Origin: Candidatus Tayloriibacteriota bacterium
GTDB lineage: Bacteria > Patescibacteriota > Minisyncoccia > Phycocordibacterales > PALSA-1337
Reading direction: 5' to 3'
Assembly: GCA_028286665.1 (NCBI GenBank)
Contig: JAQBRD010000026.1
Location: 71,967 to 107,970 of the forward strand
DNA length: 36,004 bases
Under the pieces are notes generated by a model. That model was not told where the DNA came from, ran no database searches, and saw nothing but the letters and a program-made list of their open reading frames with translations. Each line of letters begins with the position of its first letter. Position 1 is the stretch's first letter. Shown piece after piece: positions 5,681 through 31,692 of the stretch. Position numbers and translations under genes: made by a program.

Positions 5681-5701
5681 CTTGAAATCATTCGACGAAA
5701 G

Positions 5702-5729
5702 AAAAAACCGCGATTGATCGCGGTTTTTT
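5702..5729. terminator. Bidirectional intrinsic terminator
   Basis: AAAAAACCGCGAT (5702-5714) pairs with ATCGCGGTTTTTT (5717-5729) around a very short loop. A-run and T-run flank the GC stem, so it can stop both the plus-strand small gene and the convergent typA transcript. Confidence 0.88.
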
Positions 5730-5737
5730 CTTTCGTA

Positions 5738-9740: not shown

Positions 9741-10007
9741 ATGAAAAAAGACATCCATCCAAAGGACTATCGCCAGGTCATCTTCGTCGACAACTCGAAC
9801 GGAGCTCAGTTCCTCGTTTCATCTACGATCAAGACGAAGGAAATGGCGAAGTGGACAGACGGAAAGGAATATCCTGTCTACCATGTTGAAATCTCAAGCG
9901 CTTCTCATCCGTTCTACACGAACCAGGAGAAGACTATGGACGCAGCCGGCCGAGTCGAGAAGTTCAAGACGCGACAGTCGAAGTCAACTGCTTCGAAGAA
10001 GAAGTAG
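9741..10007 (+). CDS. rpmE2: 50S ribosomal protein bL31 type B
   Basis: This 88-residue protein begins [20 protein letters not shown] and continues with [30 protein letters not shown] and a Lys/Ser-rich tail. The spacing KxxIHPxY...SHPFYTG is typical of L31 type B, the form lacking the zinc-binding cysteines of type A; no Cys is present here. L31 lies at the central protuberance of the 50S subunit and bridges to the 30S head. The gene precedes prfA, a frequent neighbour of rpmE in bacteria. It is followed three bases after the stop by a large structured element. Confidence 0.95.
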
Positions 10008-10009
10008 CG

Positions 10010-10121
10010 AAAATAAATACGCGTCCTTTCTCGGGTACGCTGTTGAAATCTCCTGATTTCACAGCTCCTCCTCGACCTCGAAGGTCTGCGGAGAGCCCTC
10101 GAAAGAACGCTTATTTATTTT
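10010..10121. ncRNA. Structured three-way-junction element, copy 1 (candidate ncRNA or mRNA 3' structure)
   Basis: Bases 10010-10035 pair with 10096-10121 (22 of 26 positions), interrupted by single mismatches and a TC/TC internal loop (10031-32 / 10099-100). Inside are two arms. Arm 1 is GCTGT (10039-10043), bulged T, GAAATC, loop TCCT, GATTTC, ACAGC (to 10065). Arm 2 is CTCC (10068-71)/GGAG (10090-93), a TC/TGC internal loop, GACCT (10074-78)/AGGTC (10082-86) and loop CGA. The same architecture recurs at 31565-31692 with different sequence but compensating changes. On the minus strand the internal loops read GA/GA and GCA/GA, typical RNA tandem-GA motifs, so the active strand is uncertain. 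It lies between rpmE and prfA. Confidence 0.75.
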
Positions 10122-10140
10122 CCTAAGCTATCTTCTTTAA

Positions 10141-29883: not shown

Positions 29884-31575
29884 ATGACCAGAAAGCTGAG
29901 AAAACTATTCCAGCGCAGATCATCGCTCCATGAGATCGATCCTGACGAGATATTCCTCGATTCGCACAATATCCCGCAGTTCGACACGGACCAATTCGAA
30001 GGCCGAATCGACAGGCCGATCTCAAGAATGTCGCTCATCATGACGCTGCTCGCCTTCGCGCTCATCCTCTGCGTGTACCTTTCGCGCGTCTGGGATCTCC
30101 AGGTGGTGAAGGGCGCAGACTTCAATCAGAAAAGCGAGAACAACAGACTTCGGCACTCGCCGATATTCGCCGCTCGCGGCGTCATCTATGACAGGAATAA
30201 CGTCGAACTCGGATGGAATGCTCCGGGCGACGATGCTGATGTCTCGCTCCGCAAATACAAGAACATCCCAGGACTCGCCCATGTCCTCGGCTATGTGCGA
30301 TATCCGTCGAAGGACAGCTCCGGCTTCTATTATCGTGAGGATTTCGAAGGCGTCGACGGAGTCGAGAAATATTTCAATGACAAGCTCCGAGGAACGAACG
30401 GCCTGAAGCTCATCGAGGTCGACGCGCACGGCAAGGTTCAGTCCGAGAACGGAATCCAGGCTCCGAAAGAAGGCGAAAACATCGCATTGTCCATTGATTC
30501 GCGCGTCCAGAGCGAACTCCACGCTGCGATCAAGCATATCGCCGAAAGCGTCGGTTTCAACGGCGGCGGAGGCATCATCATGGACGTCCACACCGGCGAG
30601 GTCATCGCTATGACGAGCTATCCGGAATTCGATCCGCAGATCATGTCAGACCGCGCTGACAAGACGCTCATCACGAAATATCTCACTGACAAGAATACTC
30701 CGTTCCTCGATCGCGTCATCGACGGCCTCTATACGCCAGGCTCGATCGTGAAGCCGTATGTCGCCCTCGGCGCGCTCAAGGAGAATATCATCGATCCGAA
30801 TACGAATATCCTCGGAACCGCATATATTTCGATCAAGAATCAATACGATCCGACGCAGGAGACATTGTTCCGCGACTGGAAAGCTCAGGGCCTCGTCGAC
30901 ATGCGCAAGGCGATCGCCGTATCATCTGACGTGTATTTCTATGAAATCGGCGGAGGATACAAGGATCAGAAAGGCCTCGGCATCGCCAAGCTCGACCATT
31001 ATTTCCAGCTCTTCGGCTTCGGCGAGCAGATCAAGGACTCGTTCTTTACCGGCGGTTCGGGCTTCATTCCGACTCCTGAATTGAAGGCTAAGCAGTTCAA
31101 CGGCGAATCGTGGCGTCTCGGAGACACCTATCACACCGCCATCGGACAGTACTCATTCCAGGTGACGCCGATACAGATGGTGCGCGCAGTCGCTTCGATC
31201 GCGAATAACGGCGCGCTCCTCAATCCGACGATCCTGAAGGATCAGCAGGGCAGCGTCGAACGGCAATTGGATATCCCAGCTTCTGATTTCGAAGTCATCC
31301 GCGAAGGCATGCGCAAGGGCGCGCTCGAAGGTACCGGCGTATCGCTCAATGTCCCGTATGTCCATATGGCTACGAAATCCGGCACCGCCGAGCTCGGAGT
31401 CACCAAGGAAAACGTCAACTCATGGATGACCGGATTCTTCCCGTACGAGAATCCCCGCTATGCATTCGCAGTCGTTCTCGAACGCGGATCGCGCCACAAC
31501 CTGATTGGTGCAGGGGCAGCGATGCGCGAAACGATCGATTGGATGAGCAAGAATACTCCGGAATACTTCAAGTAG
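29884..31575 (+). CDS. mrdA: Penicillin-binding protein 2, peptidoglycan transpeptidase
   Basis: This 563-residue class B PBP has a cytoplasmic basic/acidic N-terminus, a membrane helix at about 50-66 (SLIMTLLAFALILCVYL), and the PBP dimerisation domain starting FAARGVIYDRNNVELGWNAPG. The transpeptidase domain carries the active-site serine in YTPGSIVKPY (S287-I-V-K290), the second motif SSD (347-349, AVSSDVYFYEIGGGY) and the third motif KSGT in MATKSGTAELG. It crosslinks lateral wall peptidoglycan with RodA; rodA is not in this window. Last gene of the mre operon; its final codons form part of a 25-bp inverted repeat. Confidence 0.95.
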   Translation: MTRKLRKLFQRRSSLHEIDPDEIFLDSHNIPQFDTDQFEGRIDRPISRMSLIMTLLAFALILCVYLSRVWDLQVVKGADFNQKSENNRLRHSPIFAARGVIYDRNNVELGWNAPGDDADVSLRKYKNIPGLAHVLGYVRYPSKDSSGFYYREDFEGVDGVEKYFNDKLRGTNGLKLIEVDAHGKVQSENGIQAPKEGENIALSIDSRVQSELHAAIKHIAESVGFNGGGGIIMDVHTGEVIAMTSYPEFDPQIMSDRADKTLITKYLTDKNTPFLDRVIDGLYTPGSIVKPYVALGALKENIIDPNTNILGTAYISIKNQYDPTQETLFRDWKAQGLVDMRKAIAVSSDVYFYEIGGGYKDQKGLGIAKLDHYFQLFGFGEQIKDSFFTGGSGFIPTPELKAKQFNGESWRLGDTYHTAIGQYSFQVTPIQMVRAVASIANNGALLNPTILKDQQGSVERQLDIPASDFEVIREGMRKGALEGTGVSLNVPYVHMATKSGTAELGVTKENVNSWMTGFFPYENPRYAFAVVLERGSRHNLIGAGAAMRETIDWMSKNTPEYFK

Positions 31576-31692
31576 GATATTCGCATCTACCTCAGAAGGC
31601 GCTAGTCCGGTCTGCTGACCGGCTAGCTTTTCTCAGACATCTGCATGTCTTCCGAAAACTTCTTCGATAGATGCGAATATCCTACTTGAAGT
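31565..31692. ncRNA. Structured three-way-junction element, copy 2
   Basis: Bases 31565-31589 pair perfectly with 31668-31692 (25 bp). Then a C-G pair (31591/31666), a TC/TC internal loop (31592-93 / 31664-65) and AGAAG (31594-98)/CTTCT (31659-63). Arm 1: GCTAG (31601-05), bulged T, CCGGTC, loop TGCT, GACCGG, CTAGC (to 31627). Arm 2: TTTTC (31628-32)/GAAAA (31654-58), TC/TCC internal loop, AGACAT (31635-40)/ATGTCT (31645-50), loop CTGC. This repeats the design of 10010-10121, with the same bulge, loop and internal-loop positions but different stem sequences. The 5' arm includes the last three codons and the stop of mrdA. No T run follows on either strand, so it is not an ordinary terminator. 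Confidence 0.78.

Follow-up and report, generated by a model that had tools for sequence, protein, structure and literature searches.

The two inverted repeats and their structure

The window analysed here is a stretch of 36,004 nucleotides from a Candidatus Tayloriibacteriota genome (G000; contig JAQBRD010000026.1). It contains two inverted repeats, of 114 bp and 128 bp, both on the forward strand and both at the 3' end of a gene. The first (bp 10009-10122) starts 2 nt past the stop codon of rpmE (bp 9741-10007, forward strand; ribosomal protein L31, Pfam PF01197, E 1e-24), and prfA follows 38 nt downstream of it. Its 27-nt arms are 85% complementary. The outer stem, formed by an A-rich 5' arm (bp 10009-10030) and its partner (bp 10101-10122), has 20 of 22 positions paired and encloses a three-way-junction core (bp 10031-10100) with a TC/TC internal loop, GGG paired to CCC, and two arms. 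Arm 1 carries a bulged T, and arm 2 a TC/TGC internal loop. Almost the same core is present in a copy elsewhere in the genome (G000:C1:11737-11836). The second repeat (bp 31565-31692) has 34-nt arms that are 91% complementary, and its core (bp 31590-31667) has TGCT as the loop of arm 1. The repeat overlaps the end of a gene for an mrdA-type penicillin-binding transpeptidase (bp 29884-31575, forward strand; Pfam PF00905 and PF03717), the stop codon of which falls in the closing helix, within 25 bp of perfect pairing. Compared with shuffled sequences, the fold stability of the two copies corresponds to z-scores of -6.3 and -11.4, respectively.

The initial annotation had presented these repeats as two copies of an undescribed three-way-junction RNA family, and its description of the sequence was accurate in nearly every detail. 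The inverted repeats were found where it had placed them, and the upstream genes are rpmE and mrdA as judged by their Pfam matches. The anatomy that it proposed for arm 1 (5 bp, a bulged T, 6 bp and a 4-nt loop) is present in both sequences, as are the six compensating pairs in that arm and the proposed internal loops, TC/TNC in arm 2 and TC/TC in the closing helix. Comparison of the element with Rfam gave no matching family.

A DNA search of the genome yielded a third copy, which has the same core within another 25-bp perfect closing stem and fills the gap between convergent peptidyl-prolyl isomerase and pyruvate kinase (pyk) genes. We built a covariance model (R1) from the first and third copies, leaving out the second. 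R1 recovered the second copy in the window independently (E 5e-10, filters off) and found additional copies in the window's genome. A broader covariance model (R2) was made after R1 and scored the two window copies at 94.3 and 63.9 bits. The covariance-model search that the initial annotation had called for thus gave further copies in the same genome and in relatives, at many places, showing that the element is not bound to one gene.

Distribution and genomic setting

R1 matched 12 of the 53 genomes of the family, a patchy presence, and R2 matched at least 108 of the 397 sampled genomes of the order. R2 found at least 9 copies in the window's genome, which also contains 1 diverged copy. Six other genomes carry at least 12 to at least 44 copies, including at least 12 in G004, at least 26 each in G070 and G289, at least 43 in G434 and at least 44 in G168. 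These counts are lower bounds, because the wide searches scored the best ten candidates per genome and because the R2 search missed a clearly related copy with a 32-bp perfect stem (G000:C1:53251-53370). Beyond the order, a handful of genomes had matches among their best ten candidates.

A collection scan with a pattern for one subfamily gave 79 loci, practically all in Patescibacteria and nearly all in records named Nomurabacteria, Kaiserbacteria, Vogelbacteria or Parcubacteria. This pattern gave no matches in viral contigs, and neither exact nor degenerate patterns of the G000-type core gave any in viral and genome collections. One record named Burkholderiales (L236, JAMPXW010000004.1) holds a Patescibacteria tsaD carrying the element; as this stretch of the protein appears to be the same as in G424, the genome has probably been mis-binned or given a wrong name. 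Two structural variants were also seen: two copies in direct tandem with a period of 89 nt (L077:9-184), and a copy following an rpoD-like gene that has an extra hairpin inside arm 2 and a 36-nt arm with 35 positions paired (L097:7489-7657). A literature search, mostly without subscription papers, found no earlier description of such elements in Patescibacteria or Parcubacteria.

In the window's genome all ten copies examined are intergenic, and 8 of the 10 clearly lie directly against a stop codon or extend over one. For three of these the neighbours are rpmE, mrdA and the peptidyl-prolyl isomerase/pyk pair; for the others they are putative rpoD-, rpoC-, hsp20- and mltG-like genes and, on the opposite strand, a putative ribosome-recycling-factor-like gene. 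The remaining copies have a similar intergenic setting, one of them beside a putative tRNA. The A-rich and T-rich arms of these copies resemble bidirectional terminators with short loops elsewhere in this genome. One such structure lies in the window itself (bp 5695-5736), where 20 bp pair perfectly around a loop of 2 nt and A/T tracts are present; by its sequence this palindrome is a putative bidirectional terminator, and its pairing extends past the T-tract. A terminator role is likely for the copies in this genome, where the arms may make the element a bidirectional terminator, and some intergenic copies could have acquired a role at transcript ends.

In other genomes the element lies inside protein genes. 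Most copies of the subfamily are within coding sequence, in both orientations, and 53 of 78 are flanked upstream and downstream by at least 60 codons of open frame, the copies being read in two different frames. The conserved housekeeping genes that host them in Nomurabacteria-type genomes include tgt, uvrD, tsaD, uvrB, ileS, mnmA and def, with GSLSPRARGALPLGSSACETP and GVSQADGPRGSAPRARGDSDP as examples of the insert peptides. Genes with in-frame copies in genus g96 include tsaD, uvrB, uvrD, tgt, def, fmt and recG; in TsaD, TGT, Def and Fmt the insert lies within the match to a single Pfam domain. A loop of UvrB that is intact and 42 nt long in three insert-free species is extended in two other species by 99 or 114 nt of element, both arms included. 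Some copies are old and inherited rather than recent jumps, since those in tsaD and uvrD are orthologous across related species; at the tsaD site the orthologous copies show compensated arm changes.

Several observations were made at the same protein sites. At one tsaD site the copies of different species have opposite orientations (L118, L119 and L121 versus L124), which could reflect either independent insertions or a flip via recombination between the element's own arms. In UvrB, between ...RPVS and YPGQIQDF, other species (L162, L165, L163, L166) contain at least three unrelated palindromic inserts, namely an HSILEG-type insert, a CCCATAGGTC palindrome and a GGTGGACAAATTATCCACC palindrome; the loop is thus an insertion hot spot shared by several families of elements. 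Variability was also seen in another loop of UvrB (LLSYFP...PDFLTI). In UvrB L157, L153 and L154, and in L120, peptides such as SPPTPLLAKERG derive from a CCTCCCCCTT...AAGGGGGAG palindrome, a separate repeat family within coding sequence.

If the elements were ordinary bidirectional intrinsic terminators with elaborated loops and no mobility, the intergenic position of all ten G000 copies, most of them at a stop codon, and their terminator-like arms would be accounted for. However, a terminator needs no conserved core sequence, a core of about 64 nt is identical at five places in G004, the mrdA copy has no clear T-run and the insertions inside proteins remain unexplained, so that we regard this explanation as quite unlikely.

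Conservation of the fold in DNA or RNA

Given the slid and shuffled controls, the covariation proposed by the initial annotation is beyond doubt. Among 26 distinct copies both sides change in 29 of 32 pairs. In total 93.7% of the cells pair, versus 61% after shuffling and 40-50% with the partner slid, although the effect size is somewhat inflated because this alignment was fitted to the structure. Pairwise identity is higher in the unpaired core (0.70) than in the paired core (0.55) and the outer stem (0.34). From these sequences, it appears that a reader of the element would sense its shape and unpaired bases, not the sequence of its stems. In the separate set of 78 subfamily copies, hairpin A has 29 different 5-bp arms, with 3 G-T and 3 A-C mispairs among 390 pairs, and the motif CGTC occurs in one hairpin loop of 65 copies.

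Selection on an RNA fold is expected to tolerate G-U pairs and to exclude A-C. In three alignments we counted 2762 Watson-Crick pairs, 35 G-T and 87 A-C. G-U thus made up 1.25% of the paired cells, with no preference for it on either strand, and the wobble tolerance on one strand that is expected of a structured RNA was not seen in these alignments. Stems of tRNAs from the same genomes had 169 Watson-Crick pairs, 9 G-U and 1 A-C (from 15 tRNAs only). Moreover, sense and antisense readings of the element give unrelated peptides, and conservation is therefore at the DNA level.

These results divide the initial interpretation. The three-way-junction family is real and apparently undescribed, but its RNA nature is not supported: G-U pairs are fewer than A-C mismatches, copies lie in frame in proteins, they multiply within genomes, and there are insert-free species. 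An RNA-only reading was rejected on the G-T and A-C counts together with the coding insertions. More generally, a functional structured RNA, whether a 3'-end or a small RNA, conserved for its RNA fold would agree with the strong covariation and with the window copies at gene 3' ends, and in the absence of an Rfam match it would be new. We nevertheless consider it very unlikely, in view of the rare G-U pairs, the majority of subfamily copies lying in coding sequence in both orientations, and the patchy presence within the family. Strong covariation by itself is no proof of RNA; here the avoidance of G-U points to DNA. Integron-like, attC-like cassette recombination sites would share a folded single strand with a bulge, variable stems and a position after genes, but RYYYAAC...GTTRRRY boxes are present in 0 of 88 copies, copies lie within genes and no cassette arrays were seen, which makes such sites extremely improbable. 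Most likely the family is a mobile palindromic DNA element and not an RNA gene.

Probable mobility and relation to known palindromic elements

Such a mobile DNA element would very probably be non-autonomous, and it may depend on structure-specific recognition of its folded strand. Five copies in G004 combine the identical core with differing perfect stems of 25-29 bp. In G434, about 30 copies (L085-L096) belong to a longer unit resembling a MITE (GAACCCATTTCAAAACCCC ... GGGGTTTTGAAATGGGTTC), in which the flanks are conserved and the three-way junction occupies the centre. A search for a near-identical empty site that would define the boundaries or a target-site duplication gave none, the UvrB comparison being too diverged. 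The G000 and G004 copies suggested insertion of a bare core into existing terminator loops; this was rejected, as in uvrB the stems arrive with the insert. Two candidate partner enzymes were also rejected. A Y1/RAYT transposase is absent from G000, G004, G053, G070, G289, G117, G121 and G223, several assemblies being incomplete, and its presence does not follow copy number. Reverse transcriptase does not track copy number either and is missing from several high-copy genomes, including G000.

We propose that a single strand of the element, about 100-130 bp long, folds as a stem topped by two hairpins, in the shape of a Y. A structure-specific enzyme would recognise this folded strand through its shape and unpaired bases, with the bulged T, the TGCT loop and the TC/TGC and TC/TC internal loops as candidate features, which would leave the stem sequence free. 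Integron integrase, which acts on attC sites, and TnpA-type enzymes, which act on hairpins, are analogues. Two processes, alone or together, could keep the arms identical: templated copying of one arm from the other within the hairpin, and selection for perfect pairing of the stem. Insertions would persist only where they are harmless, in exposed protein loops when read without stops or right after a stop codon. Tentatively, the scheme can be taken further: a host or element enzyme may move a folded strand that it recognises only by the shape of the junction and the bases left unpaired, and copying from arm to arm may rewrite the stems, giving copies with the same core and unrelated perfect stems that can be flipped in place.

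One element family is thus present at dozens of copies per genome despite the very small genomes of Patescibacteria, and the core enzymes UvrB, UvrD, TsaD, TGT and IleS carry it. Selfish palindromes within proteins, which Rickettsia and Wolbachia are known to have, are thereby shown to be more general among host-dependent bacteria with reduced genomes. With hundreds of copies, sites that recur and presence or absence among species, the family offers a large comparative set for finding how such elements move, Rickettsia palindromic elements (RPEs) included.

RPEs and the palindromic elements of Wolbachia include in-frame inserts in proteins, and the likeness is considerable: palindromes of 100-150 bp, intergenic as well as in frame in conserved genes, with no known transposase and with repair and tRNA-related genes struck (PMC10969869, PMC2229807, PMC3767692). 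The element agrees in size (repeats of 114 and 128 bp in the window, uvrB inserts of 99 and 114 nt) and in having both in-frame and intergenic copies. It differs in its hosts, the 79 pattern loci being practically all in Patescibacteria and not restricted to Rickettsia and Wolbachia, in a three-way-junction core of fixed form whose unpaired bases are conserved, and in its much freer stems. The peptides showed no similarity to models of NCBIfam or Pfam, libraries that may contain no RPE models.

REPs are high-copy palindromes near gene 3' ends, and some lie inside repair genes such as uvrB and uvrD (PMC3733652). The GTAG and CGTC super-families resemble the element in these locations, and CGTC is also the motif in the subfamily loop. 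REPs, however, are single hairpins of 20-40 bp that end in a GTAG or CGTC tag, whereas the element is longer than 100 bp, has three helices and needs no RAYT-type transposase in the genome. With MITEs it shares being short, non-autonomous, multi-copy and built on inverted repeats, but it has no terminal inverted repeat common to all copies, no parent transposase and no demonstrated target duplication; the longer unit with conserved flanks in G434 is a MITE-like exception. Coding palindromes are also present in Nematomorpha mitochondria, for which arm conversion by template switching has been proposed (PMC6649704). There, as here, the two arms of a perfect palindrome within coding sequence change in concert, but a mobile conserved core is lacking. 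Judged by its sequence, the element would thus be an apparently undescribed family with the way of life of an RPE or MITE, a different and unusually well-defined fold, and hosts in another bacterial phylum.
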